DNA of 64,000 nucleotides from Spartinivicinus marinus (GTDB taxonomy: Bacteria > Pseudomonadota > Gammaproteobacteria > Pseudomonadales > Zooshikellaceae): positions 558,001 to 622,000 of the forward strand of contig NZ_JAPJZK010000001.1 in the NCBI RefSeq assembly GCF_026309355.1, given 5' to 3'. Made by a program: the position numbers and the translations under genes. The notes under the pieces were generated by a model. The model was not told the DNA's origin and made no database searches. It saw only the letters and a list, made by a program, of their open reading frames with translations. Positions 1 to 64,000 of the stretch are shown here, piece by piece (position 1 is the first letter of the stretch; every line of letters begins with the position of its first letter).

Positions 1-317
1 GTGCCACTTTCACTCACTTGGGTGATACACCAATAGCCGAGTATTTCGCCAGTACCCGCTACCAAAATGAAGGGTGCACCTGTACCCGCCAGCTCAACCA
101 TATGAAGCAGGCTATCACGACTGCCATATTGGCCAGGGTACATGGTGCCACTTAAAGCCATCGTTCGAACGGTTTCCCCGGTATACTGCTGCTGTGGGTA
201 GCCGCCTATGATATGCTGGCTTACCCATTTAAATTGCCATTGCTGACGAAGCTTTTGATAACTAGCGGTCTTGATAGAAAATATAAAATCACCCAACTTG
301 AGTAGTGTATAGCTCAT
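1..317 (-). CDS. U: Tail protein U (P2 gpU family), partial, prophage 1
   Basis: This is the N-terminal ~105 codons of a P2 gpU-type tail protein; the rest lies beyond the left edge. The translation is nearly the same as the complete copy in prophage 2 (44965-45372), beginning MSYTLLKLGDFIFSI. In P2 this protein acts at the tail terminus during tail completion. The start codon overlaps the stop of the tape-measure gene by four bases (ATGA), which indicates translational coupling. The synteny T-U matches P2. Confidence 0.85.
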   Translation of the reverse strand, partial: MSYTLLKLGDFIFSIKTASYQKLRQQWQFKWVSQHIIGGYPQQQYTGETVRTMALSGTMYPGQYGSRDSLLHMVELAGTGAPFILVAGTGEILGYWCITQVSESG

Positions 318-2440
318 AGGGTAGCCATATCCGTATCGTATAAAACACTTCTCTGCCTGGCTTCCGCCTCTTGCTCACGCTCTTCTAAAGCATCCTTCAC
401 TTGCTGTGTGACTTCTTCTGCCGACATACCAGGGGCTGCATTGATGGTAATTGGTGCGTTTAGGTGGGTAGTAACATTCATATTTTTCTGCTGATTGATT
501 TGCTGTAGCCGCTTTTCTATTTGCTTAGCATTAACACCTTGTGTCTCTTGTATCTGGGCTCTGCGTTGCTGCGTTCGCTGGTTAATTTTTCCGGCAACTG
601 TTTTCTTTTCTTCCTCATCATCCCCCGTAAACCAACGCTTGATACCTTTTAGCTTCTCAATGGCTTTATTAATCCACTGAAACTTGCTGCGGAGCCAATC
701 AATTGCCGGTTGCCAGACCTTCATGAATAGCTTTTTAGCTGAAAAACTAGAAAGCCTGTTTTTAATGTTATTTACCCCTGAGCTAAATGCATTAAGCACA
801 GAATCCCAGAGGTTTCTAAAGTAGTCTTTAATCTGGTCCCAGTTAGCGATTAATAAACCTAGAGGTGTACTAGTAAAGAAGTAGTTTTTAATAGCCTCCC
901 AGGCTACACCGAATATTGCTTTGACTCTCTCCCATAAGTTACCAAAGTAGTCTGTGATTGGTTCCCAATTAGATATCAGCAAACCTAGTGGTGTAAAATT
1001 GAAAAAGTAGTGTTTAATGGTTTCAAATGCTGAACTACAAGCATTAGCAACAGTATCAAATGTATCGCCTAAAAATGTGGATACAGTACTCCAGTGGGTA
1101 ATAATTAATGTCGCACCAATCGCAATGGCTTTAATAATTAGGCCAACCGGATTGGCCATCATGGCTAGCCCAACGGCTTTTATTGCTGGAATAAATGCTA
1201 TTAATGCAGACCCAGCTGCCAATACGGCACCCACTAATTTTACTCCAATTAAAGCAGCTACAACCGCTGCAATGTTTTTCCAGCCAACGGTTTCCTCAAT
1301 AAAATGACTGACTTTACTAGCCACAGTAACGACGGTTTTGCCCAGGTTCCACATAAACCGACCCACACTCACTAATGAATCAGCCACTTGGATTAACACC
1401 TGATTAAAGCGAGCGCCGTATTTTTCATGGAAAGTTTTAAACTTAATCATCATGCGGGTAACCAAAGGCATAAACTTGGCACCCACTGATTTACTGACAC
1501 TGCCAATGGTTAGTTTAAAGTCTAAAAAGGCGTCCTGAAAATCCTCGGCATTTTTGGCATCTTCTTTTGAAATTATATTACCGGTGGCCCTGGCGTCTTT
1601 TCTTAGTGCATCGAGCCCTTTTTTCCCATCCTTTAGCATATTCACCAACCCAACGCCTTCGGTATCGAATAGCTTCATCGCCAGTCGCACACGATCGGCT
1701 TTATTGGGGATATGCTTCATCGCTTCCGAGATATGCTCAAACTGTTCTTCAGGTTTCAGCGAGTTTAACCACTTAGCATCTAACCCTAATTCTTTGAGCG
1801 CTTTACCCGTTTTACCAATCCCAGCGGCGGCTTCCGACACCCGTCGTACCATCCGTTGGGAAGCCGTATTAAATTGCGCGGTAGACACCCCAGAACGCTC
1901 AGCCGCATATTGATATTCTTGGAGCCCTTCGACACTAAAGCCCAGTTTAGCCGCATGCTTGGCAATGGGGTCTCCTCGATCAGCCGTGGATTTCACCATG
2001 GCCAATAAACCACCTGCAGCCCCCGCTAAGCCACCAGCGGCCCATTTACCGGCGGTTTTTAACTGGCCAAGCCGTTGCATCCCTGATTGCTGAAGTCCTT
2101 GGAAACGGGCGGTACGCTGCAACTGTCGTTGGGTGCGTGCCAGGTTATTTAAATTGACTCCATAGCGTTGTGCAGAACGTGAAGCCCGCGACAAGGATTG
2201 CTCAGTACGCCGAATCGCATTGGCTAACTGCTGATTACTCCCACCCGCTTGTTGTTGCTGTTGGCGTAATCGAGCAAGACGCTGGCGATACTGATCCACC
2301 TGTCGTACAGCGGCTAGTTTTTTATTGGTTTCCCGGTAAGCTTTACCTAACCGACTGGCAGCAGATTCGGTTTTTTTAAATGACTTCGCCAGCGACTTAT
2401 CAATATAAGCGCCAATCGCAATGTTGAGTTTATTCGCCAT
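314..2440 (-). CDS. T: Tail tape measure protein (P2 gpT-like), prophage 1
   Basis: This 708-residue protein sets the length of the contractile tail. The N-terminal ~130 residues are rich in Q, R and coiled-coil heptads. Small-residue hydrophobic segments lie near residues 135-150 and 390-450. A tandem motif of the type YFFxxTPLGLLIxNW is repeated at roughly residues 480-560, which is typical of tape measures. The C-terminus is highly charged and coiled. The gene follows the E/E-prime chaperone gene as in P2, but here a 129-bp non-coding gap separates them, whereas the gap is 5 bp in prophage 2. It is almost identical to the 709-residue copy at 45369-47498, with substitutions clustered around residues 270-370 and at the extreme C-terminus. 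Confidence 0.93.
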   Translation of the reverse strand: MANKLNIAIGAYIDKSLAKSFKKTESAASRLGKAYRETNKKLAAVRQVDQYRQRLARLRQQQQQAGGSNQQLANAIRRTEQSLSRASRSAQRYGVNLNNLARTQRQLQRTARFQGLQQSGMQRLGQLKTAGKWAAGGLAGAAGGLLAMVKSTADRGDPIAKHAAKLGFSVEGLQEYQYAAERSGVSTAQFNTASQRMVRRVSEAAAGIGKTGKALKELGLDAKWLNSLKPEEQFEHISEAMKHIPNKADRVRLAMKLFDTEGVGLVNMLKDGKKGLDALRKDARATGNIISKEDAKNAEDFQDAFLDFKLTIGSVSKSVGAKFMPLVTRMMIKFKTFHEKYGARFNQVLIQVADSLVSVGRFMWNLGKTVVTVASKVSHFIEETVGWKNIAAVVAALIGVKLVGAVLAAGSALIAFIPAIKAVGLAMMANPVGLIIKAIAIGATLIITHWSTVSTFLGDTFDTVANACSSAFETIKHYFFNFTPLGLLISNWEPITDYFGNLWERVKAIFGVAWEAIKNYFFTSTPLGLLIANWDQIKDYFRNLWDSVLNAFSSGVNNIKNRLSSFSAKKLFMKVWQPAIDWLRSKFQWINKAIEKLKGIKRWFTGDDEEEKKTVAGKINQRTQQRRAQIQETQGVNAKQIEKRLQQINQQKNMNVTTHLNAPITINAAPGMSAEEVTQQVKDALEEREQEAEARQRSVLYDTDMATL

Positions 2441-2569
2441 ATACTCTTCGTGAATAATTTTTAGGGTTTGTTATCTGCATTCTTCAGCTCAGTCACTTAT
2501 TTTTTTATAAGCTCCTTCGCTTCATCATTTGATGCCGCCCCTAAAAACGATTCCCTTTGATTATCATGG

Positions 2570-2940
2570 TTATTGTTTAGGAAGGGATTTGTACCAATCA
2601 AGGAGGTCTTCGAGGTCCATGTCTAACAGCTCTGACAGTGGGGTACCTCGCAGGTAGTAGGATAAGGCCAGGCAGATTTGTTTTACTGATTGCCAGTCGA
2701 GTCTAAAAAACCTGTCACCACTTCATTCAAGTGTTGAAAGTCTTCTCCATCTAATTCTTCTACAGTAGCAATATCCAAGCTGGTTAAATCAGCCACCATA
2801 TGAATACTTTGGGTAATTTCCCCACCACCCCGTTTTTCCATATTTTTTAAATCTTTGGCTTTAGGGCGACGTAAAGTGACTTCGTTAATGACTTCACCAT
2901 TACGTTCTATAGGATAGTTTAAGGTAATTAATTCGCTCAT
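2570..2940 (-). CDS. E': Tail assembly chaperone E-E-prime, -1 frameshift product, prophage 1
   Basis: Translating gpE and slipping back one base at the slippery heptamer TTTTTTA (2704-2710) gives a 123-residue fusion. Its extension starts RLDWQSVKQI and ends LLDWYKSLPKQ. P2 makes E+E-prime by the same kind of -1 slip on a T-run. The extension frame is open for 45 codons beyond the E stop, encodes a conserved-looking peptide and is preserved in prophage 2. The arithmetic fits: 371 nt plus one re-read base equals 124 codons. The long form probably binds the tape measure and tube during assembly. Frameshift efficiency cannot be judged from sequence. Confidence 0.82.
2683..2940 (-). CDS. E: Tail assembly protein E (P2 gpE family), prophage 1
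   Basis: This is an 85-residue tail assembly chaperone, the short form of the E/E-prime pair. It has the family hallmark of a basic N-terminal strand region (ERNGEVINEVTLRRPKAKD) followed by an acidic helical part. It sits between the tube gene FII and the tape measure gene T, exactly as in P2. It differs from the prophage 2 copy (47620-47877) at about ten positions, mainly around residues 50-70. Confidence 0.88.
   Translation of the reverse strand: MSELITLNYPIERNGEVINEVTLRRPKAKDLKNMEKRGGGEITQSIHMVADLTSLDIATVEELDGEDFQHLNEVVTGFLDSTGNQ
2704..2710 (-). other. Programmed -1 ribosomal slippery site TTTTTTA, prophage 1
   Basis: In gpE frame the codons read GGT TTT TTA, so the heptamer fits X XXY YYZ with X=T, Y=T, Z=A. 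It lies seven codons before the gpE stop. The same heptamer occurs at the same place in prophage 2, where flanking codons differ. This resembles the P2 E/E-prime slip site. Confidence 0.8.
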
Positions 2941-2974
2941 GATGTACCTATTGTGTTGTATGTTGGTTTAGAGT

Positions 2975-3478
2975 TTATAAGCCTAAAAATTCACGGACGC
3001 TTTGCATGTGATCAGTGCCTTCTATTTTGCGCACATGGTTAACCACATCGATCTCGTAAATGAGTTTGTTATTGATGGTGAGTTTGTAGTAATCCAGTTT
3101 GACCGTGGTCGTTAAGCTGGATAGCTCGGCTTGTTTCCATTCACCAAAATCAATTTCACTGACTAGACCACGGCAAACCGCATCAATTCCTTGATCACCC
3201 TGACCAGGGTTGCGCAATACACCTTTGATATTGAACGGCACTTGCTTACCTTGCTGGAAGCCAAATTCCTTCAGTACATTGATATTACAGTCATCAATGG
3301 TAAAGCTCAGCTCCATGGCTTCCATCCCCATATCCAGGTGGGTAACGCCATCCATGCCACCACCACGGTATTCTTCAGTTTTAACCGTGAGTTTGGGTAG
3401 TGTAATAGACTGCACTCGTCCTGCCTGGCTTACCCCATCAATAAATAGGGTGGCATAAGTGACATTATTGGCGTGCAC
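2975..3478 (-). CDS. FII: Major tail tube protein (P2 gpFII), prophage 1
   Basis: This 167-residue protein forms the inner tube of the contractile tail. It is beta-rich with no signal or membrane segment, at the normal length for FII. It starts inside the end of the sheath gene (14-bp overlap), giving the P2 FI-FII order. It is identical to the prophage 2 copy except in the last residues (SVREFLGL versus NIRELLGL). In prophage 1 the E gene follows 35 bp later; in prophage 2 an RDD gene is inserted at that boundary. Confidence 0.93.
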   Translation of the reverse strand: MHANNVTYATLFIDGVSQAGRVQSITLPKLTVKTEEYRGGGMDGVTHLDMGMEAMELSFTIDDCNINVLKEFGFQQGKQVPFNIKGVLRNPGQGDQGIDAVCRGLVSEIDFGEWKQAELSSLTTTVKLDYYKLTINNKLIYEIDVVNHVRKIEGTDHMQSVREFLGL

Positions 3479-4664
3479 TGAGTACCTCCTTAAAATAATC
3501 GTCGGTTAACGTCGCATTAAAAGTGATGTGTTCAGCTGGGGTGGGTGGAGTAAAATCAAAGTTAAAATACACCTTGCCATCTGCTAAGGCGTCCGGGGTA
3601 TTTAAATCAGGATCAGCCCAGCAAGTGCCGCCTAAAATAGCCCCGATATTTTTTAACCGACGTAGATAATTGTTGACACCTTCTGTTACGTCAGCCACGT
3701 AGTTTTTGCTGATATTTCTATCAACCGCCCACATATGAGCACGTTGCAATGAGTCATAAATAATTTCGGCTGTACGTACCACATTAATAAAGGCCCATTT
3801 AGGATCACCGCTACAGGTCCGGTTGCCCCAAAGGCGGTAGCCATTTTCTTGAATAATGGTAGTGACTTCATTGCTATTTAAGTAATTGGCTCGGCAGTTT
3901 TTATCACCGAGTTTAAAATCAATCGGTCTAGCGGTACCTAGCACGCCGTTAATTAATTTATTCGAGGGAGAATGCCAAAACCCATTGTCGTTATCAATTT
4001 TAGCCATGAGTCCCGCGACTCGGGCTGATGGCGGTTCAATGACAATGCCGCCTTTACCTTCGTTAGCATTGCTATTCCAGACTTTAACCCAAGGATCGAC
4101 CAGGTAGGCATAACGTTTACCAAACTTTTTACGGTAGTTAACTGCTTCTTCACCTGTCGTGTTAGGACTATCAATGATAGCCACTCCACCTAAGCGCTCA
4201 GCGGCTGTGATCAAGGCATCAGCAGCGGCTTTGATATGTGAAAATTCTGGCGCAATTAAAATACGTGGTTCGACATGTACGGTACTTTTAGCATCAAGCA
4301 GTGCATAAATACCGGTATTAGGTTCACCTTTCTTACCAATAATGGCACCCAGTGCAGTGTTTTCATTATCAGTTGTTTCGGGAGCCGCAGGTGGTTTATC
4401 GTTAACCCGAATAACGACAACCATTGCCCCAATCTGATCAAAAATACCTTGCAAGGCGGCAGGTAAAGTACCTGTATTACCTAGTTGCTCAGCCTTTTTT
4501 AAACTACCTGCCAATAAAACGGGTGTGTCATAGGGGAAAACATCTTCTTTAGCGTCGGGTGCCGTCCCCACTAAACCAATCACACTGCTTTTTACGGTAC
4601 GTATTGGGCGTGGGCCGCTGTCAATTTCAACGACCTCGACGCCATGGAGAAATTCATCTGTCAT
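3465..4664 (-). CDS. FI: Tail sheath protein (P2 gpFI), prophage 1
   Basis: This 399-residue contractile sheath subunit matches P2 gpFI in length and order. It starts MTDEFLHGVEVVEIDSG, and the central part has typical sheath motifs (YLVDPWVKVWN, SPSNKLINGVLG). The C-terminal half (WGNRTCSGDPKWAFINVVRT) is the conserved sheath core. It is near-identical to 49025-50224, with differences concentrated at residues 35-75. An AGGAA-type ribosome site lies just upstream of the chosen ATG. Confidence 0.94.
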   Translation of the reverse strand: MTDEFLHGVEVVEIDSGPRPIRTVKSSVIGLVGTAPDAKEDVFPYDTPVLLAGSLKKAEQLGNTGTLPAALQGIFDQIGAMVVVIRVNDKPPAAPETTDNENTALGAIIGKKGEPNTGIYALLDAKSTVHVEPRILIAPEFSHIKAAADALITAAERLGGVAIIDSPNTTGEEAVNYRKKFGKRYAYLVDPWVKVWNSNANEGKGGIVIEPPSARVAGLMAKIDNDNGFWHSPSNKLINGVLGTARPIDFKLGDKNCRANYLNSNEVTTIIQENGYRLWGNRTCSGDPKWAFINVVRTAEIIYDSLQRAHMWAVDRNISKNYVADVTEGVNNYLRRLKNIGAILGGTCWADPDLNTPDALADGKVYFNFDFTPPTPAEHITFNATLTDDYFKEVLSARQ

Positions 4665-4686
4665 GAGTATTCCTTTTTAGGATGGG

Positions 4687-5730
4687 TTAACGGGTATATT
4701 CAATTTTCTCTTTTAGTGATAATACGCATTTAATATCACCTCGATTAAGGGTTGTTCCTGTTCCTACACGCACAAAGTCTACTGTGACCGTGGTGAAGTA
4801 AGTATTAGGGATAAAGAGAGAAAAAATGACATTACCTTGGCTATCGGTATATATTGCTTTAGCACTTTTTCCTTCGGATGTGGTTTTTATAAGCTCTCGA
4901 TTAGGCGCATAACAATAGCCTGCGAAATGATCATTAAGAATTCGGCTTGAGTTGTAGCTAAAGCCCAGTACATGAAATAAAAACATTGCATCATGCTGGT
5001 AAATATTAAACGGTGTAACAAAGTGGAAATACACATTATCTTGTGTTTTTAAATCAAATACCTCAAAGTCACCACCAGACGCTGGCGATTCATTATTAGA
5101 GGATTCAAAACTGGTTCTATATACAATTCCTTGGAATACACAATGGCGTCTTGACCCCATTTCATCAGGCACACCTGTGTAGTTTTTTTCGTTGTCATAC
5201 AGTGAGTGTTTAACATATTGTGGGTGAGGATTATCAGCTTCTAAATGGGTTTTCCATTTATCATCAACATATTGCCGCGAAGCTAAGACAATGGCTGGAT
5301 CAATTTTTAGTTCAACATTCGCTGTATTGCTTAGCTCAAATATCACCCGGACATATAAGCTACTACCACTGCCTTGGGCCAGTGTTGGTTTATAAGTTTT
5401 AGGGTATTTTCCTATGACAATTAAATTATCGTCTTCATCATACAAGCCAAACTCGGTAATATAAAAATTACCGTCTTCCTCAACAATAACTGTTTCAGCC
5501 ACTAGCCAGTTATCGTTGTCTGGGTGTTGAAAAATATGGTTAATTGGGCCTTGCCATTTATCGCGGACTAAAGAAGTATCTGTTTCTTTTGGGTTGGTTT
5601 CTTTACCGCCATCTTCGCCTCCATCACCCACTTTTAAAGTGGTTAACTTAACTGTTTTACCTAGCGCTTGGGCATTAATAATTCTTGCTTGCCCCTGCTT
5701 TGTGAGCAAACTAAAAAACTCTTGATTCAA
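4687..5730 (-). CDS. H: Tail fibre / tail-collar protein, prophage 1
   Basis: This 347-residue protein has an N-terminal domain of the phage tail-collar type (gpH-like). It starts MNQEFFSLLTKQGQARIINA and has FYITEFGLYDEDDNLIVIGK near residue 90. The C-terminal ~180 residues have no match I recognise and are probably the receptor-facing part. It occupies the P2 H position between I and FI. No separate fibre-assembly chaperone (gpG) is visible. Prophage 2 has two unrelated genes here (50269-51569), so this is a host-range swap point in an otherwise conserved tail. Confidence 0.75.
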   Translation of the reverse strand: MNQEFFSLLTKQGQARIINAQALGKTVKLTTLKVGDGGEDGGKETNPKETDTSLVRDKWQGPINHIFQHPDNDNWLVAETVIVEEDGNFYITEFGLYDEDDNLIVIGKYPKTYKPTLAQGSGSSLYVRVIFELSNTANVELKIDPAIVLASRQYVDDKWKTHLEADNPHPQYVKHSLYDNEKNYTGVPDEMGSRRHCVFQGIVYRTSFESSNNESPASGGDFEVFDLKTQDNVYFHFVTPFNIYQHDAMFLFHVLGFSYNSSRILNDHFAGYCYAPNRELIKTTSEGKSAKAIYTDSQGNVIFSLFIPNTYFTTVTVDFVRVGTGTTLNRGDIKCVLSLKEKIEYTR

Positions 5731-5731
5731 T

Positions 5732-6427
5732 TTAAGCTCCTTTCGGACGAATAGTTAAGATGTTGATTGATTGGAAGCCGCTCGCAGCAAATCGACAAAG
5801 TTGGCTTTCTAAATGAGTTGTAATTTTTGGAAGTACAGTATGTTTTGCTACAGTTTGATAGCCAGATGTTAGACAACTACAAAATTGACTATCAATTTGT
5901 TTAGTTAAATGAGGAATAACTGTTGTTTGTTGGCCTTGCTGGCAGCTGGTAGCTAGACGCGGTACTTTGGCTTTATTGGTTAAATAAATGGTTAAATCAA
6001 AATGACTGCGTACATTTTTCGTCTGTTTAATTAGCCGATTAATGTTTTCATATTCTTTTTCAGTGAGGCCACGGGTTTCTAAGTTAACATCGGCTTTAAA
6101 CGTATAAGGCTGGCCGTTATATTCAAACCATTCGGTTACCGTGATATCCACACCGGTTGCAGCCAAAGCTTTTTTTACTGCGCCAAGCGTGCCTTTATGG
6201 CGATGTACTTCTATTGATGCTTTTATAACATTACGCTTGGTTTGTTCTTCCCAGGCTTCGTCCCATTCATCTACCGATAAGGCCCAGGCTAACCAAGGTA
6301 AGCAATTGTCAGAACAGGTATCAGGGTTCCAGACACTATTCGGGTAAGCAGGGATATCACTAAACCGTTGGGTATTGTCGGATAATGCTTGCTCTAATGG
6401 GCTAGCATTACTGGGTAATAAGCTCAT
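5732..6427 (-). CDS. I: Tail protein I (P2 gpI), prophage 1
   Basis: This is a 231-residue baseplate wedge protein. The N-terminal ~150 residues (MSLLPSNASPLEQAL, NCLPWLAWALSVDEWDEAW) are the conserved gpI domain that contacts J and the fibre. The C-terminal ~75 residues carry a two-fold repeated pattern with paired Cys (around SQFCSCLTSGYQT and SQLCRFAASGFQS) and differ completely from the prophage 2 gpI. This fits co-evolution with the adjacent fibre gene. It overlaps J by four bases. Confidence 0.88.
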   Translation of the reverse strand: MSLLPSNASPLEQALSDNTQRFSDIPAYPNSVWNPDTCSDNCLPWLAWALSVDEWDEAWEEQTKRNVIKASIEVHRHKGTLGAVKKALAATGVDITVTEWFEYNGQPYTFKADVNLETRGLTEKEYENINRLIKQTKNVRSHFDLTIYLTNKAKVPRLATSCQQGQQTTVIPHLTKQIDSQFCSCLTSGYQTVAKHTVLPKITTHLESQLCRFAASGFQSINILTIRPKGA

Positions 6428-7320
6428 GCGAGATTGGTTGTAATAGACTTAGCTTTAGGTGCTTGAAAGACTTTGGCTTGAATATCTGCTGTGGGTGAAA
6501 TTAATTCTACACGGGTAACGCCCCCCATATGGAGCGCATCATAAATACCCGACAAGGGGACGGTTTTACCTAATTTATAACACTGCTCGACATATTCGTT
6601 TAATGCTGTGGTAGCCGTATCGATAATGGCTTTAGAAGATGGCCCTTGTTGTACATGTAGTTTGGCATGTATGGAATAATCGATAATTTCAGCGGCTTGC
6701 ACGGTAATATGATCTGTCAGCGGTCTAACATCTTCATCATTTAACGCGGTTAACAACGCTTGTTTGATTTCGTCATCAGGCGCCATATCGGCTTCATTAG
6801 CTAAAGGTCGCCGTAAAAAAGTAATCATCACCTCGCCAGGCTCATCGGAATACACTGAGACATCGGTAATTTGATCATGGGCATTATGCGCATGAGCTAA
6901 ATAGGCACCGACTGGACCAGCGGTTGAATAACCTTCAGGCCCTAATTGAATACGACGCCTAAAGTCTTCGTCAGTCTCCATAATCGGTGGTTCTGGTGGT
7001 ATTTGGCTATCATCACCTGAATCAATCACTTTACGCTTAACGCCGTAATTAGCGCCTAAATGATCTAAATCATTACCCACTGCATATGCTAGCATGACGG
7101 CTTTAGCCCGTTCATTAAACTGCTGTCGAATCAGCATTTCACGATAAGCACAGACCTCTAAAATCTTCATCGCAGGATCAGATTCGACCAGCGCCGTAAA
7201 ACTGCTATCGCGCTTTTTTAGGTCATCCAGCATTGATGCTAGGACCATTTCATAATCTATTTGCTCGATAACATCTGGTGCAGGTAACTGTGATAAATCA
7301 ATGGCGGTAAATTCGCTCAT
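6424..7320 (-). CDS. J: Baseplate assembly protein J (P2 gpJ), prophage 1
   Basis: This is a 298-residue baseplate J-family protein that forms the wedge periphery. Family signs are YAVGNDLDHLGANYGVKR around residue 80, the MIT-type FRRRIQLGPEGYSTAGPVGA region and the C-terminal VTRVELISP motif. Both ends overlap neighbours (W upstream by four bases, I downstream by four bases), so the V-W-J-I genes are translationally coupled. It is over 95% identical by eye to 52207-53103. Confidence 0.93.
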   Translation of the reverse strand: MSEFTAIDLSQLPAPDVIEQIDYEMVLASMLDDLKKRDSSFTALVESDPAMKILEVCAYREMLIRQQFNERAKAVMLAYAVGNDLDHLGANYGVKRKVIDSGDDSQIPPEPPIMETDEDFRRRIQLGPEGYSTAGPVGAYLAHAHNAHDQITDVSVYSDEPGEVMITFLRRPLANEADMAPDDEIKQALLTALNDEDVRPLTDHITVQAAEIIDYSIHAKLHVQQGPSSKAIIDTATTALNEYVEQCYKLGKTVPLSGIYDALHMGGVTRVELISPTADIQAKVFQAPKAKSITTNLA

Positions 7321-7652
7321 ATAATGATGCCATCCAACGTAATGGGTTTGCCTTCGGGTAAATAAATCCCTTCTAACGCAATCAATAACTCGCCTGGCTC
7401 GCCGCGATAAGCCTTAACCTTGTTGACTTTTATGCGTGGTTCCCAACGGATTAAGGCTTCAGCAGTCGCCGCGTAGATTTCCACTAACCATTGACCATTC
7501 ATGGGTCTATCAACAAGATCAGGCAAACGGCTACCATAATCACGCCGCATCAGTCGGGTACCAATGCGGGTGGTTAATATGTCAGTGATGGATTGGCGGA
7601 GGTGATCAAGGTTAGAAAGGGGTTTACCGGTTAGTCGGTGAGTGCCTTGCAT
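7317..7652 (-). CDS. W: Baseplate protein W (P2 gpW, T4 gp25-like), prophage 1
   Basis: This 111-residue GPW/gp25-family baseplate protein carries the signature ILTTRIGTRLMRRDYGSRLP and ends in a short beta region. It is at the standard length for the family and sits between spike protein V and J as in P2. The gap to V is only 11 bp, whereas in prophage 2 a lectin gene and about 1.1 kb of AT-rich DNA fill this boundary. Confidence 0.93.
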   Translation of the reverse strand: MQGTHRLTGKPLSNLDHLRQSITDILTTRIGTRLMRRDYGSRLPDLVDRPMNGQWLVEIYAATAEALIRWEPRIKVNKVKAYRGEPGELLIALEGIYLPEGKPITLDGIII

Positions 7653-7663
7653 AATAATATTGA

Positions 7664-10089: not shown

Positions 10090-10121
10090 AAATAACTAAA
10101 GGCGGGTTTCCCCGCCCATAA

Positions 10122-20079: not shown

Positions 20080-20081
20080 GG

Positions 20082-54043: not shown

Positions 54044-54568
54044 TTATTCCTTTTGAAAGTTTTTATCTGATATTAACTTTTTCTTCAATTAGGGATTGCT
54101 AAAAACCCCTAGATATAACGAATCCAAATGACCTTCCAGTAACTTTTTCTAATTCTTAAATTAAAAATCAGAATGTTATTAACTAACTATTATTGCTTGG
54201 CACATAACAATAAGTAGGTTGTTTATTGTTGGCTTCGTTATATTTTGAGATTTTTTCAAGATACCTAATAAGCACTTACTCAAAGTAATATATTAAATAT
54301 ATACATCTGGCAGATTGCTTGAGACGACTAATAATTACAATGAAAAAATACTTTAAAACCTCCTATATATAAATATTAAATACGCCAGATATTTTTATCA
54401 TAATGATTCTTTAGGTGTAATATTTTTTACGCTATCTTTACATTTGTAAACAGAGTTTCATTAACTTTGGTAACGAAAGGAGTATTTCAATATGATCTAC
54501 TAATGAGTTATTCCATCTAGAATAAAACTATTAAAATATGCATCCTCCTCTATGAGAGTTAACACTTC
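54044..54568. other. AT-rich non-coding insert DNA between lectin gene and V
   Basis: About 525 bp with no supportable gene. It is markedly AT-rich relative to the flanking tail genes. It is probably the upstream regulatory region of the lectin gene; promoter boxes are not clear enough to assign. Confidence 0.45.
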
Positions 54569-56163: not shown

Positions 56164-56486
56164 TGCCAGACTCGATTGGGTTGGGTATCAGGGGTTTCGG
56201 TTAGCATACATAATGTCATGCCATTGTTTTTCGGTAGGCACTTCACCAAGGTATACGGCTGGTTACGGATAAGTAGAGTGAGTTGATCAGGCCAGTTTTC
56301 AGCTTCGGTATTGAACACTTCTAAGGTGGGCTGTTTCTGGTCAGAATCAATATGACCGACTTCTGTATTAGCCACTTGCCAGCGAAAAATACCGGCTAGG
56401 GTACTCCCATCTGGCAAGGTCACCGGCTCACCAAATAATGCTACTTTCTCCTGGTTTAATGCCTGTTGATATTCACTAAATCTCAT
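56160..56486 (-). CDS. Head-tail joining protein (lambda FII-like/ATP-binding sugar transporter-like family)
   Basis: This 108-residue protein starts MRFSEYQQALNQEKVALFGE and has GIFRWQVANTEVGHIDSDQK, characteristic of small head-tail joining proteins that follow lambda-type capsid genes. It overlaps the capsid gene and gpZ-like gene by four bases each. Confidence 0.68.
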   Translation of the reverse strand: MRFSEYQQALNQEKVALFGEPVTLPDGSTLAGIFRWQVANTEVGHIDSDQKQPTLEVFNTEAENWPDQLTLLIRNQPYTLVKCLPKNNGMTLCMLTETPDTQPNRVWQ

Positions 56487-57505
56487 AACACAGTTAACAG
56501 TGCAGTGGCATTCGGTCTAACCGGTACAATTAAGGGCGCTGATTGGGTCATGACCATTTCTACACTAGGGTCATCCTGCTTCCAGATTTTGGGAAATAGT
56601 TTCATGGCTATTAGTGCATCTAAATCCATAATCGCCCCAAAGCATTGGGTACCTTGCACTGAACGACTCATTAAATTAACACCACCCTCTGGAATAAAGG
56701 GTTTGCTAATACCTTTTTCCATGTATTGGCGACTATCGACGTATAAAATAAAACGACCACCGCCTAAGCTACCCACTTTAATCACTTCATCGCTATTATT
56801 TAATGGACCACGATCAATCGTGGCATTAGTGCCAGCTACTTGAGTATCTAGCTGTTCTAATAATTGTTGATTTTTCCGTAGTGCTTTCCAGACGGATGGA
56901 CTCATCACCACATCTTCAGCCGGTGCACCACCTTTAGTCATCGACATGGCAACGCTCATGTCTTCTAGGTCATCGATCGGCGTGGCTTTGGGGTCATTCC
57001 ATTTAACAGAAACCGTTTTAGTTAAACTAGGGTCCCGCTGATAATCCACGACACGCTTAGGGTATTTTTCTCCTTCAACCATCACCCGCCCATGTAAACT
57101 CGCTTCTACCGCCATCCACTCTAGCCGGTTGTCGATAGACTCGGCATGCTCCAGCAAGATTTCCATTTTACGGAGGTTACGTCGTTGCTGTGGTGACAAT
57201 TGGCCATGGTAAGGCTCACCAGGCCGACGCTTTAACATGGCTTGGGGAATAATCGGTTGCTTGGGTTTAATATAAGCCGGTTTAAACGACTTCATTTCGC
57301 TGCCTTGCTCTTCCATGACTTGGCCTTCCACCATGGGTGAAACAAAGGGGGCTAAATGACGATCACGAAATAATAGCTCAAACTCAATAGTTTCAGTTTC
57401 AAACTCATGAGTAGTGGAATAATAACGGCTTAAATAAAAAGGTAAGGGCTTTTTCTTGGTCTCAATGGTTTGGACCAATTGCATCGTATCGGTATAACGT
57501 TCCAT
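56483..57505 (-). CDS. E: Major capsid protein E (lambda family)
   Basis: This ~340-residue protein is a lambda gpE-family capsid. The family motifs are FELLFRDRHLAPFVSPMVEG, YIKPKQPIIPQAMLKRRPGE, and EVIKVGSLGGGRFILYVDSR. The ATG at 57505 (MERYTDTMQLVQTIETKK) with AGG upstream is preferred over a longer reading. There is no delta domain; assembly uses the nested scaffold (57962-58330) and the decoration protein. Confidence 0.92.
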   Translation of the reverse strand: MERYTDTMQLVQTIETKKKPLPFYLSRYYSTTHEFETETIEFELLFRDRHLAPFVSPMVEGQVMEEQGSEMKSFKPAYIKPKQPIIPQAMLKRRPGEPYHGQLSPQQRRNLRKMEILLEHAESIDNRLEWMAVEASLHGRVMVEGEKYPKRVVDYQRDPSLTKTVSVKWNDPKATPIDDLEDMSVAMSMTKGGAPAEDVVMSPSVWKALRKNQQLLEQLDTQVAGTNATIDRGPLNNSDEVIKVGSLGGGRFILYVDSRQYMEKGISKPFIPEGGVNLMSRSVQGTQCFGAIMDLDALIAMKLFPKIWKQDDPSVEMVMTQSAPLIVPVRPNATALLTVL

Positions 57506-57593
57506 GGGGTACCTGTTATTTAAAAAGATCAATTAAAAGAATAAATAAGATAAACAGCAGAAGTGTTGTAAGCAGGCTAAGTAAAACTATCAT

Positions 57594-57962
57594 TTAAAAA
57601 ATACTAGGAGCTTGTAATAAAATGCCACGCTCTCTTAAGGGCTGAAAAACGGTGTCTGTTGTATGGCCAGGTCCTAAGTTTAAAATCGCTGGATTTAAAC
57701 AAATCGAGGTATACACACCGGCGGTGGTTTCTTTGCTGGTGGTATCCATCCCATACGGTAATACGCAATCTGGCACTTCGCTGCCATCGTTAGCATTTTT
57801 ATCGGATAAACGATATTGGCCTTTATTATCACGCCCTAACACCGAATAGGGTTTTAACTTTTGGCCTTTAGCAATAGTCACCGTAACCGTAGTAATCGGC
57901 TGATTGCCCGTAATAATAATTGGTTGGGCGGCAATCGAATGATGTTGGCTATCCGCAATCAT
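57594..57962 (-). CDS. Head decoration protein D (lambda gpD-like)
   Basis: This is a 122-residue HDPD-family protein (QPIIITGNQPITTVTVTIAK, GDNxxx-type DNKGQYRLSDKN, GVYTSICLNPAILNLGPGHT). It stabilises the expanded capsid. Its ATG overlaps the stop of the protease gene (TAATG). Confidence 0.87.
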   Translation of the reverse strand: MIADSQHHSIAAQPIIITGNQPITTVTVTIAKGQKLKPYSVLGRDNKGQYRLSDKNANDGSEVPDCVLPYGMDTTSKETTAGVYTSICLNPAILNLGPGHTTDTVFQPLRERGILLQAPSIF

Positions 57963-58330
57963 TAGGCTTTATCTCCATACACATGATTAAAATCCGCGAG
58001 CATTTGGCCAATGGCTGTTTTAGGTGCTTCGGCTGCTGGTACTGCTTCGCTATCAATATTCGGATGCGTATCGTTATTCATTACTTGGGTAAAATCAGTT
58101 GTATTTGCTTTTGTAGTTTGAGGAATCGTTTTTAATAGCATAATGGCTTCATCCGCTGACATCGCGGTATTTAACGCCAGTTGTTGTGCAGTGGCTTCGC
58201 GACCTTTAGCTTCGTCACTGGTTAAAATGGCTTGAATCCGCTGGCGTTCTTCTGCCACAGCCGCTTGTTTTTCTACGTCTAAATTAATGGGGGCTTCCGC
58301 TTTAGAAGCGGGTTCATGGGTTGCTGTCAT
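57962..58330 (-). CDS. Nu3: Nested scaffold protein (Nu3-like), internal in-frame start
   Basis: An in-frame ATG at 58330 (MTATHEPASKAEAPINLD) has AAGGA five bases upstream, inside the protease gene. It would give a 122-residue scaffold corresponding to the C-terminal domain. Lambda Nu3 is made in the same way inside gene C. Confidence 0.65.
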   Translation of the reverse strand: MTATHEPASKAEAPINLDVEKQAAVAEERQRIQAILTSDEAKGREATAQQLALNTAMSADEAIMLLKTIPQTTKANTTDFTQVMNNDTHPNIDSEAVPAAEAPKTAIGQMLADFNHVYGDKA

Positions 58331-59215
58331 AACAGTCCTTAGGGTGGTGGATGAATTAAGGGTTTGAATAAAAGTGGGTAATACTTGATGGGCGGGTAAA
58401 ACCCGATCAGCTAAGCCAACATCGATAGCCGCTTGCCCGGTAAATACTTTGGCTTCGGTATTTTTAATGGCTTCTGTATCAAGTTGCCGATGACGGGAAA
58501 CCGTTTCGATAAATAAACCATAAATGTCGTTTATTTCAGATTGCAAGTCGGCTTTGACATTATTAGGTAACGGCTCAAACGGATTACCATCGGCTTTATG
58601 GGCACCGGCATGAATTAAGGTGACATTAATCCCCTCTTTAGCCAGCAATTCACTTTGATCGGTATGGGCGAGTAATACCCCGATACTGCCAACCATGCCG
58701 GTACGAGGCAGAATAATTTCATTGGCCGCTGAGGCTAAGGCATACGCCGCACTGCACGCTTGTTCATCGACTAACGCCCAAATCGGTTTATATTGCCTCG
58801 CTTGATAAATCAAATCGGCTAAATCAAAGCAGCCCGAAACACTGCCGCCGGGGCTATTAATATCCAATAAAATCCCTTGAATATCCGGGTCATTAATGGC
58901 TTCTGCTAATTTTCTCTGAATCCCATCATAGCCGGTCATTCCACTATAAGGATCCAGATGACCGTATTTATGGGTCAAGGTGCCAACCACAGGAATAATG
59001 GCTACGCCTTGATTGACTTGATAAAGCTTGTGTTCACGAGGCTCAAATTCATCGGCGGCTTGCTTTAATTCGGTGGCGGATAACTGCTTGTCACCATTAA
59101 TCAACGACTCAATCACTAGCCGGTCAGATAGCGCACCTAGCATCACTTGGGCATAACTGGGTTCAATCAATAAAGGCTGATTAATTATTTGCGAGAGTAA
59201 ATGGGTATGTTTCAT
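57962..59215 (-). CDS. C: S49-family head maturation protease with C-terminal scaffold (lambda gpC-like)
   Basis: This is a 417-residue protein. Residues ~65-270 are an S49 protease with GILLDINSPGGSVSG, nucleophile S155 (ACSAAYALASAANE) and general-base candidate K207 (HAGAHKADGNPFEPLP). Residues ~295-417 are a charged helical scaffold region (VAEERQRIQAILTSDEAKG). Lambda gpC/Nu3 has the same layout. It processes the portal and scaffold during head assembly. Confidence 0.92.
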   Translation of the reverse strand: MKHTHLLSQIINQPLLIEPSYAQVMLGALSDRLVIESLINGDKQLSATELKQAADEFEPREHKLYQVNQGVAIIPVVGTLTHKYGHLDPYSGMTGYDGIQRKLAEAINDPDIQGILLDINSPGGSVSGCFDLADLIYQARQYKPIWALVDEQACSAAYALASAANEIILPRTGMVGSIGVLLAHTDQSELLAKEGINVTLIHAGAHKADGNPFEPLPNNVKADLQSEINDIYGLFIETVSRHRQLDTEAIKNTEAKVFTGQAAIDVGLADRVLPAHQVLPTFIQTLNSSTTLRTVMTATHEPASKAEAPINLDVEKQAAVAEERQRIQAILTSDEAKGREATAQQLALNTAMSADEAIMLLKTIPQTTKANTTDFTQVMNNDTHPNIDSEAVPAAEAPKTAIGQMLADFNHVYGDKA

Positions 59216-59230
59216 CTTTTTTTAGGCATA

Positions 59231-59255
59231 AAAAAACCCGGCATTTGCCGGGTTT
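59231..59255 (-). terminator. Rho-independent terminator after darG, inside the head operon
   Basis: The minus strand shows a 10-bp stem (AAACCCGGCA / TGCCGGGTTT) with a 2-nt centre (effective 4-6 nt loop), followed by a T-run. It follows darG by about 25 bp and precedes the protease gene, so it would stop transcription from the terminase/portal/darTG side unless late antitermination reads through. Confidence 0.88.
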
Positions 59256-59279
59256 CATTAATTTGTGGTTATGCTTGAC

Positions 59280-60314
59280 TTATATCCAAGCATACTCTTT
59301 TAGTCTATTAAGCGCTTTATGTATATAAGTAGGTTTAATAGACGCTTTGTGCTCATTCCAGTGTTGAATGAAGTCTGTAATTCCATCTACATTATCTTTA
59401 TCTAAGCCTTCATGGTTTACAACCCAGTGTACTGTTGCAAGCACCTCCATGCTTAATGGTGTTTCATAACCATCAATCAATTTTTCTACTTTCTTTAGCC
59501 GTTTTTTAGCTTCAATATTTTTATTTTCTTCAAGAAAATTTGAAGCTTCTTCTATTGCAGATGTTTTTACAGATATTTCTGATTTAGCAACACCATCCCC
59601 ATAACCTTCAATAAAATGTCCATCTATAATGTGTAGAACATTATTTAAATTTTTGGCATAAGGGCCATATTTATTTGCCTCATAATTAAGTTTAAGAGGC
59701 TGACCTGCTTCTTGTAGAAAATAAGCAAGTTTTTGAATGTCTATTTTTGTACATTCGTATTCTTTTTTGTGATAAAACTCAAGAAGTTTAAGTAACAGCG
59801 CTCTGCCTTTGGTCATATTGGGCTTTTTAGTCCTAATAGGCATTTCTGACACAGATGGACTACGAGACGGCTCATATACTGTAATATCTACATTTTCTAA
59901 GGTTGCAAGTGCAGTCATTATCTTTTCCTTGACTATTGACCAATCCAATCCACCTAATCCAGAGCCCAAAGGGGGTATTGCAATTGAATTTATATTATTT
60001 TTCTTAATTATCTTAACTAAGTCTACTAAACCATTTTCGATATATTCAATGTTTGAACTACCACGCCAATGCTTTTTAGTAGGGAAGTTTATAATCCATT
60101 TTGTGTCATACATATCTTCTTGTTTGGTGACAAACATATTACCAGTAGCAACAAGTTTTTTGTCACAAGCTTTTTTATAGGCATTAAAGTTGTCTGGAAA
60201 AGCTTTCTTAAATTGAAGCGCTAAGCCTTTCCCCATTACACCAACACAGTTAACAGTATTGACTAATGCCTCTGATTTGTCTTTTAAAATATTACCTGTT
60301 GTAAACTTAATCAT
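59280..60314 (-). CDS. darG: DarG antitoxin: macrodomain DNA ADP-ribosyl hydrolase
   Basis: This ~344-residue protein has an N-terminal macrodomain (MIKFTTGNILKDKSEALVNT, VGVMGKGLALQFKKAFPDNF, IAIPPLGSGLGGLDW) with the DarG GKGLA loop and GSGLGG loop. The C-terminal domain (KIDIQKLAYFLQEAGQPLKL, EANKYGPYAKNLNNVLHIID) binds and neutralises DarT. It removes ADP-ribose from thymidine in DNA. The ATG at 60314 is chosen; an earlier ATG lies inside darT. It is immediately downstream of darT. Confidence 0.92.
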   Translation of the reverse strand: MIKFTTGNILKDKSEALVNTVNCVGVMGKGLALQFKKAFPDNFNAYKKACDKKLVATGNMFVTKQEDMYDTKWIINFPTKKHWRGSSNIEYIENGLVDLVKIIKKNNINSIAIPPLGSGLGGLDWSIVKEKIMTALATLENVDITVYEPSRSPSVSEMPIRTKKPNMTKGRALLLKLLEFYHKKEYECTKIDIQKLAYFLQEAGQPLKLNYEANKYGPYAKNLNNVLHIIDGHFIEGYGDGVAKSEISVKTSAIEEASNFLEENKNIEAKKRLKKVEKLIDGYETPLSMEVLATVHWVVNHEGLDKDNVDGITDFIQHWNEHKASIKPTYIHKALNRLKEYAWI

Positions 60315-60328
60315 ACTGTACTGCCTAT

Positions 60329-60946
60329 TTAAAAAAACCAATCTGGCCTAACTGCTACGTTAATAGTGTACTGCTTTTGACCGATGACTTGGAGTACTTG
60401 CTTTACCATGTCAAGATTATGAACACCAATGGACTGAACTAAATTTAAGTTAAACTCATCATGTATCATAAACTCAGATTGACGAATCCTCTTGCCATCC
60501 GGGAAATTCTTCCAGTACTTAGCATTAATAATTTGCCAGTCCAATTTAGATAGTTCTCTTACATCATTATAGTAGTCAGTCAAACCCATGATGCTGTGAC
60601 CATCAGTGAAAACAAACAGCTTAGTGTTTTGTTGCACTATTTGTACGGTTGTCTGAAAAACAACCATTTTTTCCATTGTGACACCTTGGATATTGCCTTG
60701 TTTGATTGTATACAGCATTGGCGACAGGCTGTTAAAGTAAAATGGAACATAGTCGTGTATACAGCCGTAAGGTGGTACTGGTACCTGGTAGGTATTTCGT
60801 TGGTTTTGAATCTCTGCGTTTGCAGCACTAGTATATTGAGTATTCACTCGATTTTTACACAATATTGCACCAACTTTGACAATATTTGAAAGGTTACTTA
60901 TATGTGTAAAGTGAAATATTGACGTAGGGTTTGGAAATTGTTCCAC
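60329..60946 (-). CDS. darT: DarT toxin: DNA thymidine ADP-ribosyltransferase
   Basis: This 205-residue toxin starts at GTG with AGGA upstream. DarT hallmarks are SIFHFTHISNLSNIVKVG, the NAEIQNQR segment with catalytic-type R50, VPFYFNSLSPMLYTI, and RQSEFMIHDEF with the catalytic E158. It modifies thymidines in single-stranded DNA using NAD+. DarTG modules are toxin-antitoxin and anti-phage defence systems. Here the pair lies within a prophage structural operon between portal and protease. Confidence 0.92.
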   Translation of the reverse strand: MEQFPNPTSIFHFTHISNLSNIVKVGAILCKNRVNTQYTSAANAEIQNQRNTYQVPVPPYGCIHDYVPFYFNSLSPMLYTIKQGNIQGVTMEKMVVFQTTVQIVQQNTKLFVFTDGHSIMGLTDYYNDVRELSKLDWQIINAKYWKNFPDGKRIRQSEFMIHDEFNLNLVQSIGVHNLDMVKQVLQVIGQKQYTINVAVRPDWFF

Positions 60947-61022
60947 AGTTTACTTTCCTACCATTCCATGACATTAGCCAACTAACCACTGATTATATAT
61001 ATGTTAATGATATATAGCTAAC

Positions 61023-62513
61023 TCATATTAGTCCTTTATGCTCCGCCTTCTCCCGCAACCGCTGCTCAAACAACTCTTGATAATCTTCACCCAACATCAT
61101 GGCTGCTTTCTCGTAAGTGAGTAAGCCTAGCTTCATCAGTAGTTCAATGCGTTTGACTTCTTTTAAACCATCAATATGGGTTTGACCTTGTGCGATCCAC
61201 AGGCAACGACACCAAGCGGATTTGGCTTGATAAAAGTTTGGGGAGCCATTAGGTAATTGAATGATGCCTTTATTGACCATTTCTTCTAGCCAAAGCGCAT
61301 AGAGTTGACTGCAAAATCGGGCGGGAATAATTTCCCTTATCCCTAAGAAATATTTCCAACTCTCCAGCATACTGGCTCGGGCACTGGAATAATTGGTTTT
61401 ACTGTAATCCTTACTCAGCTGTTCGAAGCTTAAATTCATGCTAGCCGCTAAGTGCCGTAGCAAAGTATCCTCAAACTGGCTAAAGGCGGCATTGGTACTG
61501 GCGGTTTTCAGCTCTAACTTTTCATTAGGTAGTAAATGCGGGATTTTCACCCCATTAAATCGAATATTTTTAGCCTTTTGGTGATAACCCGCCACTTGGG
61601 CTAAATAATTGGTAAATGCATTATTGTGGCCATCATCTACCCCACCCAGTGCCGCTAATACGGTTTGACTGTCCATTTCAGACTCAATGACGGCGGCATA
61701 CATGGCATTCACAATGGCATTTTGTAGAGTGGCATCCTGAAATTGTTCCAGCATTTTTAAGCCTTTTAAACTGGACACAAACACATTCACCCCACGGGTT
61801 TGGTCGGCTTGTTCCGGCTCAAAAATATGTAAGATTTGTAATCGGCCCCAGCGCTTACGCTTGGCGATTTTTTTCCACTGATAAGCCTGATGAGTTAAGC
61901 CGGCTTCTGATTGATGGGCAGAACGAATATGGTAAGCCAAGGCTTGGCCGCGTGGTCCTAATTCCACCCCAGCCCGAAGCCGGTAACTGTCGGGTAATTC
62001 ATAGGGATTACAGAGCCGTTCACTATCAATAAGTTTGATTGCGGTTTGGGCGTTATTTCTGGCCAATTTCCGCCATTCCACACTGGCCAATACTTCGCCT
62101 TGATGAGCATGGTGACGAACGCTTTCTCTGGCGAGCATGGTTAAGGTGCGCTTTTCTTCCGCATCAATCCAAGCGTCAGGGTCTTCCGCCCAATCGGTAA
62201 AGCGCGCCTCTACGTCTTTAGCCCATTCGTTAGCCACCTTATGATCAATGCCCAACACTTTATAGTTAGGCTTAGCCGATAACCGAAACTGGTGACCAAC
62301 GATATTATCCACATAGGTTTGTTCAGCCCCGGCGGCATAACCATGGCTGCGCTTAATATCCCGAGCACGGCTGTTACGCAGCTGCCGTTCGGGCAAGTGC
62401 TCCATGTCCACTGACAAGGTAGGCGGCTGCCAGTCTTGCAACGTTTCCTGCAACTGTCGGCTATAGGTGTGCGCTTGAATGGGGTTTCCCCATTGATCGA
62501 TTAATTGTGGCAT
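61023..62513 (-). CDS. B: Portal protein (lambda gpB family), prophage 2
   Basis: This ~496-residue lambda-type portal has the family motifs RARDIKRSHGYAAGAEQTYV, RHHAHQGEVLASVEWRK, IKLIDSERLCNPYELPDSYR and LSKDYSKTNYSSARASMLES. The ATG at 62513 overlaps the gpW stop (TAATG); an upstream TTG is less likely. It is unrelated to the HK97-type portal of prophage 1. Confidence 0.93.
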   Translation of the reverse strand: MPQLIDQWGNPIQAHTYSRQLQETLQDWQPPTLSVDMEHLPERQLRNSRARDIKRSHGYAAGAEQTYVDNIVGHQFRLSAKPNYKVLGIDHKVANEWAKDVEARFTDWAEDPDAWIDAEEKRTLTMLARESVRHHAHQGEVLASVEWRKLARNNAQTAIKLIDSERLCNPYELPDSYRLRAGVELGPRGQALAYHIRSAHQSEAGLTHQAYQWKKIAKRKRWGRLQILHIFEPEQADQTRGVNVFVSSLKGLKMLEQFQDATLQNAIVNAMYAAVIESEMDSQTVLAALGGVDDGHNNAFTNYLAQVAGYHQKAKNIRFNGVKIPHLLPNEKLELKTASTNAAFSQFEDTLLRHLAASMNLSFEQLSKDYSKTNYSSARASMLESWKYFLGIREIIPARFCSQLYALWLEEMVNKGIIQLPNGSPNFYQAKSAWCRCLWIAQGQTHIDGLKEVKRIELLMKLGLLTYEKAAMMLGEDYQELFEQRLREKAEHKGLI

Positions 62514-62713
62514 TAAAAGGTGACCCAAAAGGCTTGCCGTGGTGCTTTTCCATTTAATTCCGCTTCCAAGGACTTAATATAATGCTCCAACTGTTGAGGG
62601 GCATGAAAGGTAACGCTATTGCCTTCGCTGTCGCGGACAGTAGCACGGAGTGAACCCGTTTGTAGCTTATGTAAAGCAGCTTTGGCTTCTTCTAAACGTT
62701 GCTGGTGGGTCAT
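62513..62713 (-). CDS. Head completion protein gpW (lambda), prophage 2
   Basis: This 66-residue protein starts MTHQQRLEEAKAALHKLQTG and matches the lambda gpW head-tail joining family in length and in its place between terminase and portal. It overlaps both neighbours by 3-4 bases. It must not be confused with baseplate gene W. Confidence 0.9.
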   Translation of the reverse strand: MTHQQRLEEAKAALHKLQTGSLRATVRDSEGNSVTFHAPQQLEHYIKSLEAELNGKAPRQAFWVTF

Positions 62714-64000
62714 CCTAATAAATCCGCTAAGTCTGAGAGTTGTAAGGCAGGTGTCGTTGATTGGTTGGGTTGGTTTGAGTGGGTGACTAAACGGTTATCA
62801 TCCCAGTGAGCGGCCCAACCCGGTGGTTGTTGCCAATTAAGCTTGTGGGCATTGAGTTTTAATAAACAGCCCATGTTGTACACCAATAAATCCCACGCTT
62901 CGTTAGGGGCTTTATCGACGACTTTGCACCAACGGCCTTTCGCATCGCGGGCTTCATTGGTGAGCTCTTCAAAAAAGTCTTTCGTGAGCCAATCCGGAAA
63001 GTGAATATAATCCGCGCCGGGTTCATCCCGTTCTAATGCATTACTCACCGTATCTTTAATTAAATTGGTATTGAGTAAATAGAGTGGGATATCCCCTTGA
63101 ATAAAGGCTTTACGTTGTTGCCGGTTGCGATTATCAGGAAAGGTTTCTTGAATGCGTGGCGCACCTTCGCGGCCTGTGCCTTTAATTAAGATTAAACGGT
63201 GAGTTAATTGCCGATTTTTTAAATACCGATAAAATTCATAGGCCTTATCGGTCACCCCATCTTCACCACCACTGTCACAGGCGACTAATTTAATTTGCAT
63301 TAAACGACCGGAATTGTCCGCTAAGGGATAGGTTTTATGGATGACCTGATCAACCAGGCAATGCCAGTCTTCTTTAAAAGCGGCGGGATTTAATGGGTAG
63401 GGTTTACCTTTATGGTCTAGCCGCTGGGATTTATCTATCATGAATCGATCAATGACCCAACCTTCAAATTCTTTTCCCCAGCCAATAACCTGCACAACAA
63501 AACGCTTTTGTTTACCGCCCTGCACATCAATCGCAGCGGTTAAAAAGCGGACGCCTTCAGGAACGACTTGTTCACCTAAGTTTTCCTGGCGATCCATTAA
63601 GGCTTCAGCGGTGCGAAATTCGGTATTGTGTCGATAACGATAGGGTTTACCTAAATCTAAATTGGTCCAGCTTTTTAATTTTTCTTGGCTGCCGGTATGC
63701 TCATAATCCTGTTCGGCTAACAGCCCTTGATACACCAGTTGTTGCCAGGTCTGAAAGCCTGCTGCCGGACCTTCTAACCAAAAGGTGGCCATTTTAGAAG
63801 AACGGCTTGTGCCATATTGATTGCCTTTTTTATCCAGCCATTCGCCTTCTTTCAGCCAACGCCCGGCTTGGTTCAGTTTGAATTTTTGCTCAGGGCGTAT
63901 TACCCCTTGGCAATGAGGACAACGCATGACTACCGATTCAGCCGCTTTGACTAAATCCGCTTGTTCCACCCAATGCAGGTGATCAAAGATCGGTTGAAAC
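62710..64000 (-). CDS. A: Terminase large subunit GpA (lambda), C-terminal part, cut by window edge
   Basis: About 430 C-terminal residues are visible; the frame stays open to the right edge, so the ATPase part lies outside. The visible part includes a zinc-type CPHC segment, the nuclease region (RFLTAAIDVQGGKQKRFVVQ, VIGWGKEFEGWVIDRF, LVACDSGGEDGVTDKAYEFY) and the GpA end. It packages DNA and cuts cos ends. Confidence 0.92.
   Translation of the reverse strand, partial: FQPIFDHLHWVEQADLVKAAESVVMRCPHCQGVIRPEQKFKLNQAGRWLKEGEWLDKKGNQYGTSRSSKMATFWLEGPAAGFQTWQQLVYQGLLAEQDYEHTGSQEKLKSWTNLDLGKPYRYRHNTEFRTAEALMDRQENLGEQVVPEGVRFLTAAIDVQGGKQKRFVVQVIGWGKEFEGWVIDRFMIDKSQRLDHKGKPYPLNPAAFKEDWHCLVDQVIHKTYPLADNSGRLMQIKLVACDSGGEDGVTDKAYEFYRYLKNRQLTHRLILIKGTGREGAPRIQETFPDNRNRQQRKAFIQGDIPLYLLNTNLIKDTVSNALERDEPGADYIHFPDWLTKDFFEELTNEARDAKGRWCKVVDKAPNEAWDLLVYNMGCLLKLNAHKLNWQQPPGWAAHWDDNRLVTHSNQPNQSTTPALQLSDLADLLG

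Follow-up and report, generated by a model that had tools for sequence, protein, structure and literature searches.

How can two unrelated phage heads come to sit on the same contractile tail? The question is raised by a stretch of 64,000 nucleotides from Spartinivicinus marinus (the window; genome 558001-622000 of a 6.44-Mb contig), which contains two neighbouring prophages designated here W1, with an HK97-type head, and W2, with a lambda-type head. Coordinates are those of the window unless genome positions are indicated. Both prophages display a common P2-type tail, and the connector gene between tail and head was not merely swapped: judging from its domains, the HK97-headed form is a two-domain fusion. 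It is highly probable that W1 and W2 belong to a co-resident exchange group, in which two unrelated head lineages are mounted on a common tail and swapped at the connector gene, the HK97 form with a fused coupler.

One tail, two heads and the gene between them

The W1 tail (1-8236, reverse strand) extended leftward past the window edge and comprised the genes for the tape measure (314-2440), FII (2975-3478), the sheath FI (3465-4664), the fibre H (4687-5730), I (5732-6427), J (6424-7320), W (7317-7652) and V (7664-8236). Sheath, V and fibre were recognized by Pfam, and tape measure, I, J and W by PHROGs. The original prediction, made from the letters alone, had delimited V through U as 7664 to 1 and hence left V out. 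The W2 tail (44965-55141, reverse strand) displayed tape measure (45369-47498), FII (48535-49038), FI (49025-50224), G (50269-51042), H (51039-51623), I (51578-52189), J (52207-53103), W (53100-53438) and V (54569-55141), assigned by matches to W1 proteins, with H assigned by Pfam and G by position. The contractile nature of the tail was indicated by sheath and V spike-type families in W1 and by a GPD hub family in W2 (42818-43753). The label P2-type is provisional and refers to the order V W J I H (G) FI FII tape measure, which we take to be that of P2. FII was also named from this presumed order, and its PHROG (phrog_55) carries the label 'head closure'.

Gene order was the same in both tails, as predicted, and they aligned in five collinear blastn blocks of 93.7% (1-2440, W1 coordinates), 86.8% (2550-2949), 92.0% (2988-4678), 88.7% (6263-7652) and 84.8% (7664-8315). 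The expected near-identity of most proteins held for tape measure, FII, FI, J, W and V (92-98%) and failed for protein I (59% over 147 residues) and for H and G, which gave no match between W1 and W2. FII differed at its C-terminus alone, as foreseen (three of 167 residues: 160, 161 and 164). DNA identity in 250-bp bins was only 48-59% along the fibre stretch (4751-6250 of W1), against 75-99% outside it, and W2 contained 1.13 kb more than W1 between V and W. The pair was in direct orientation with an offset of 45.06-46.91 kb, as anticipated; in place of a single near-identical tract of ~7 kb, five blocks of 85-94%, unrelated fibres and a cargo insert were found. Exact runs shared by the two tails numbered 62 at a length of at least 25 bp, 26 at least 50 bp and five at least 100 bp, the longest being 135 bp.

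The heads were unrelated, as had been predicted: the capsids gave no BLASTP alignment (E=0.30), and the head genes belonged to different Pfam families. The HK97-type head and neck of W1 (9064-15326, reverse strand) included gp10-like (9064-9540), Hc1 (9464-9784), gp6-like (9781-10089), capsid (10122-11333), protease (11338-12009), portal (11975-13183), TerL (13180-14877) and TerS (14874-15326) genes. Phage_capsid, Phage_portal, TerL ATPase/nuclease and Terminase_4 families were identified by Pfam and Hc1 by PHROGs, while the gp6-like and protease genes are presumed from their position. The W2 stretch next to the connector gene (55636-63969, reverse strand) displayed the lambda-type families GpA, portal_2, S49, capsid E and Z (Pfam), with D and Hc1 assigned by PHROGs.

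The limit of homology fell inside a single gene, 8208-9071 in W1 and 55116-55643 in W2 (both reverse strand), in agreement with the original prediction. The W1 gene, which overlaps the V start by 29 nt, encoded a protein of 287 aa. Its N-terminal domain (about aa 1-118; 8718-9071) was of siphophage tail-terminator type (PF11367 at 10-111; phrog_347/78 at 1-113) and ended near the ends of the stand-alone terminators L114, L120 and L077 (113-128 aa); its C-terminal domain was of contractile-tail collar type (phrog_1072 at 154-283). The W2 gene encoded a stand-alone collar/terminator of 175 aa, which belonged over its whole length to phrog_1072 (4e-33), the family of the C-terminal part of the fusion. 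Terminator and collar roles were proposed because the family profiles match: the collar profile A8 matched the pyocin R2 collar 6u5f ('Collar PA0615'; E=1e-14 over 4-173), and the N-domain profile A9, built from four fusions and four stand-alone proteins, matched 9lbn_K ('terminator protein gp8'; E=5.6e-14). An AlphaFold2 (AF2) model of the fusion displayed two domains of strand-helix-strand form, followed past residue 249 by a C-terminal extension of low to middling confidence.

Only the 3' end of the fusion gene (8208-8315) was common at the DNA level to lambda-headed copies, as indicated by codon-block identity and by a blastn limit at 8315 against both W2 and P3714, a lambda-headed cluster elsewhere in the genome. 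DNA homology between the two head types started at about codon 253 of W1, directly past the last core strand of the model. The shared C-terminal extension is probably the sheath-binding piece of the connector.

Tails grouped by host species

The genome contained more than the two tail-sharing prophages first noticed. The tail query matched six places (own locus included), representing five head-plus-tail clusters and a remnant: W1, P2691 and P3771 were HK97-headed, W2 and P3714 lambda-headed, and three of the five lay elsewhere than the W1/W2 pair. The sister species (G002, this genome being G000; clusters labelled Q and P, respectively) displayed three HK97-headed clusters, one lambda-headed cluster and one remnant. 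Fibres assorted separately from heads. HK97-headed P3771 and Q96 carried G, H and I of W2 type, and lambda-headed Q1292 carried I and the H N-terminus of W1 type.

Synonymous divergence (dS) of the tape measure averaged 0.33 in HK97-HK97 pairs of the same species (n=6), 0.31 in pairs with mixed heads (n=9) and 0.28 in the lambda-lambda pair (n=1), and rose to 0.90-0.97 across classes between species (0.90 in HK97-HK97 pairs, n=9). FII displayed means of 0.24 for mixed heads in the same species versus 1.23 for HK97-HK97 pairs of different species. For V, values of 0.41 (HK97-HK97), 0.61 (mixed) and 0.76 (lambda-lambda) within species compared with 0.75-0.93 between species.

Trees from four tail gene sets (tape measure and FII; FI; J; W and V) all joined the five tails of this species in one clade at 100/100. 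A single clade of the six HK97-headed tails was rejected in all four sets by the approximately unbiased test (p-AU 2.4e-5, 3.6e-5, 2.9e-81 and 2.7e-4). Head state needed three changes on each tree, the maximum with three lambda-headed tips, and species only one. Tails consequently group by host species, not by head type. The two species were also separate in HK97-type portal, protease and gp10, whose dS between species (0.24-0.44) reached at most about half the value of most tail genes (in HK97-HK97 pairs, tape measure, FII, FI, J and V ranged over 0.85-1.23 and W was at 0.47). TerL and TerS did not keep the sister-species rows together, Q96 being the outlier.

A crossover inside the connector gene can be read from the codons of Q96. 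This sister-species gene equalled that of HK97-headed Q4436 over 41 aligned codons (alignment columns 202-251), and the protein remained equal through WQQ (W1 codons 244-246) before continuing with the lambda-type LYIGDSIWLDE.

The pattern was repeated in a second host of another family. A collar homologue was present in 34 viral loci, of which 32 displayed a stand-alone open reading frame (ORF) with lambda-type Z, one lacked the ORF, and one (L156) encoded a 296-aa fusion with HK97-type head genes; 11 genome clusters also paired a stand-alone collar with lambda-type Z, two of them being the same DNA as two viral loci. L156 and L145 shared one IMG genome number and were 100% identical to stretches of genome G1112, which held one copy with an HK97-type head and the fusion and another with a lambda-type head and a stand-alone collar. 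Its two tails were 99.1% identical in DNA over 3.6 kb and 94.0-95.6% over a further 5.4 kb, and their homology began part-way through the collar domain, at about residue 97 of 175. V, J and FI were 96-100% identical between the two G1112 prophages and 41-60% identical to those of the window's genus.

The 390 genomes surveyed in the order yielded full-length fusions in G000 (three), G002 (three) and G205, and the 37 surveyed in the family of G205 yielded them in G205, G1112 and G1120. No full-length fusion outside G000 appeared among 369 class genomes or 398 phylum genomes, both samples of larger groups, nor among the phage records (50,697), where none of three hits and none of 22 hits covered 80% of the query. 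Scans of genome contigs gave no relative, although records near the window's own genome were possibly left out there. Two further candidates, G660 (a 303-aa open frame) and G627 (a 420-aa ORF), were dismissed as no N-domain match was seen. The nine distinct fusion-bearing prophages of the five genomes all displayed HK97-type portal and TerL, and a lambda-headed partner with the same tail was present in three of these genomes (G000, G002 and G1112).

Proposed origin and route of the exchange

Three direct copies of an attachment (att) sequence, a tRNA 3' end and related integrase genes lead us to interpret W1 (some 43.7 kb) and W2 (some 51 kb) as tandem prophages occupying one att site. The 50-bp att sequence started at genome 548558, 592244 and 643272. 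The central copy between the prophages (34244-34293, forward strand) was identical over 50 bp to genome 548558-548607 and 643272-643321; the latter overlapped the 3' end of tRNA-Pro (643277-643353), and a 33-base core occurred exactly three times genome-wide. Each prophage had an integrase gene near its right end: the W1 tyrosine integrase (30980-32113, forward strand; 377 aa; PF00589, PF09003) was 50% identical to the 375-aa W2 protein (genome 641003-642130).

The suggestion that the tail repeats form a recombination substrate fits this tandem att arrangement; no recombinant was observed. Recombination between the tails would release a circle of 45.06-46.91 kb containing the W1 head, an att site and the W2 distal tail, with the reciprocal hybrid remaining in the chromosome. 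Both prophages also contained RdgC-family genes (28027-28923; genome 633309-634229), a possible link to recombination. Two RHS-repeat genes were located at the left end of W2 (35416-41516); DNA resembling them occurred near P3714 and in W1, again at the left end (genome 549826-555077). Farther left, genome 506560-519390 contained a tail remnant 98.85% identical to P3714, adjoining a divergent tail cluster, and the DNA just left of the W1 att (genome 547358-548329) was 71% like the W2 integrase region; together they are perhaps a third, decayed tandem prophage.

The proposed mechanism has three parts. Within each host lineage, homologous recombination would reassort the common tail; heads would be exchanged against it by crossovers in the 3' half of the connector gene, which overlaps V, the first tail gene; and the HK97 lineage would fit the tail through a siphophage-type terminator fused in frame to the collar/terminator, yielding a two-domain coupler. 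The predicted head/tail exchange at one connector gene was strongly supported by the tree tests and by the second, unrelated host; gene content, the fusion, the incongruent trees, the Q96 crossover and the second host are shown by the data. The fused protein would act as a coupler in the virion, and recombination may run between resident or tandem prophages.

Had a single ancient replacement of the heads been followed by joint inheritance of head and tail, the fusion should be old, as it is (two families; genera g1, g9 and g130), and the species separation by HK97-type portal, protease and gp10 would be expected as well. Such common descent also predicts tails grouped by head type across species. 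The opposite was seen, the head-type grouping was rejected, and the Q96 crossover contradicts it, so that this explanation appears very improbable. The fused protein could also be the by-product of an illegitimate join with a dispensable N domain, given that lambda-headed copies manage the same tail with a stand-alone phrog_1072 collar alone. Both domains, however, persist at about 30% identity, and no HK97-headed locus with an unfused collar occurred among the loci found by collar alone; a by-product is rather unlikely. A third proposal differs from tandem-prophage exchange in its route alone and does not exclude it: incoming phages would recombine with a resident prophage, the tandem pair being incidental. 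Phage-prophage recombination between diverged sequences has a precedent (PMC3945230, in the part available), nothing here speaks against it, and species grouping fits both routes; we consider this route a serious possibility, if somewhat short of even.

Several observations weigh against exchange at a fused coupler as proposed here. The W1 protein alone found just 6u5f (E=0.31) and its N domain nothing; the two domains were unlike in sequence (hhalign probability 0.4%); and the AF2 model was middling (predicted local distance difference test, pLDDT, 71.7; predicted template modelling score, pTM, 0.46; ten-residue blocks from 251 on averaging 47-66). The contrast between species and head type was weaker for V (dS 0.61 vs 0.93), and the W1/W2 exchange was not very recent, as tail dS was near 0.3. 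Neither a hybrid junction nor a virion was observed. The G1120 fusion cluster displayed a protease matching lambda-type S49 (38%) and no capsid match, no strong stand-alone partner was seen in two of the five fusion genomes (G205 and G1120), and G001, one of the three species of the genus, lacked the fusion.

Other features, known systems and meaning of the exchange

The slot between V and W (53439-54568 in W2) held different ORFs in other tail copies and no cargo in W1. The W2 cargo gene (53636-54043, reverse strand) encoded a mannan-binding-lectin domain (PF12151, 3.8e-14). Elsewhere, by eye, the slot contained a membrane protein (P2691 and Q4436) or an ankyrin-like protein (G001), and in Q1389 possibly an ion channel, presumed by eye from the motif TVGYG. 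A ~120-bp interspersed repeat lay between tail genes at about 2440-2565, and 34 of the 45 matches listed for the tail query were to this repeat, away from tails. The W2 head operon enclosed DarG (59280-60341) and DarT (60329-60946) between portal and protease genes (59280-60946, reverse strand; PF01661, PF14487; PADLOC 1.8e-131 for DarG and 1.8e-61 for DarT); neither had a match in lambda-headed P3714 or Q1292.

Head/tail mosaicism is textbook knowledge, and SfV-type phages resemble W1 in placing a siphophage-type head, of HK97 type, on a contractile tail, which in their case is Mu-like. Of the phage records, 59 contained a collar relative, which in 42 of them extended over 80% or more of the query; VHML, ep3, Mica and Wolbachia WO were among these records. 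Foreign heads carrying a P2-type tail have been described in VHML, BcepMu and PC10; VHML-like and WO-like phages combine a lambda-type head with a P2-type tail, as W2 does, VHML having its P2-type tail on a lambda/N15-like genome, but the available part of the source mentions no cell in which another head lineage also uses that tail (PMC10612066). The portable P2 tail module of BcepMu and Campylobacter PC10 is alike, but their heads are others and the same partial source describes no fused coupler (PMC10612066). Tube and sheath have a terminator each in T4 and P2 and a joint one in other myophages; the PVC16 terminator unites two terminator-like domains in one protein ('LEGO strategy'), like the W1 fusion, but is a duplicated fold, whereas the fusion places a siphophage-family domain ahead of a collar-family domain (PMC11784142, available part). 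Inter-prophage recombination was reported for Escherichia coli O157 Sp5/Sp15 (PMC2669165) and Campylobacter prophages (PMC10782988), for which the portions available describe no neck-gene swap that places unrelated heads on a single tail. The main text of a neck classification, as far as available, contains neither 'fusion' nor 'fused' (PMC4362835). Titles and abstract openings of the papers listed on fused terminators or head/tail exchange did not describe such a fusion, which may be in print elsewhere, most subscription journals being outside this coverage. The exchange is real, recurrent and of a known kind, while the fused coupler was not found described.

With something close to an even chance, though slightly below it, the fused terminator may be a dedicated coupler that makes the contractile tail interchangeable between two unrelated head lineages within one cell. 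The 3' end of its gene would be a recurrent crossover socket, as the gene overlaps the first tail gene, and tandem lysogens could swap a host-adapted tail with head-tail fit kept. Both head types reside in one chromosome on a host-grouped tail, the gene of exchange is identified with a crossover inside it, and a second host is alike. What allows one tail to be accepted by unrelated heads thus becomes a testable question, for which the fused terminator is a specific candidate answer.

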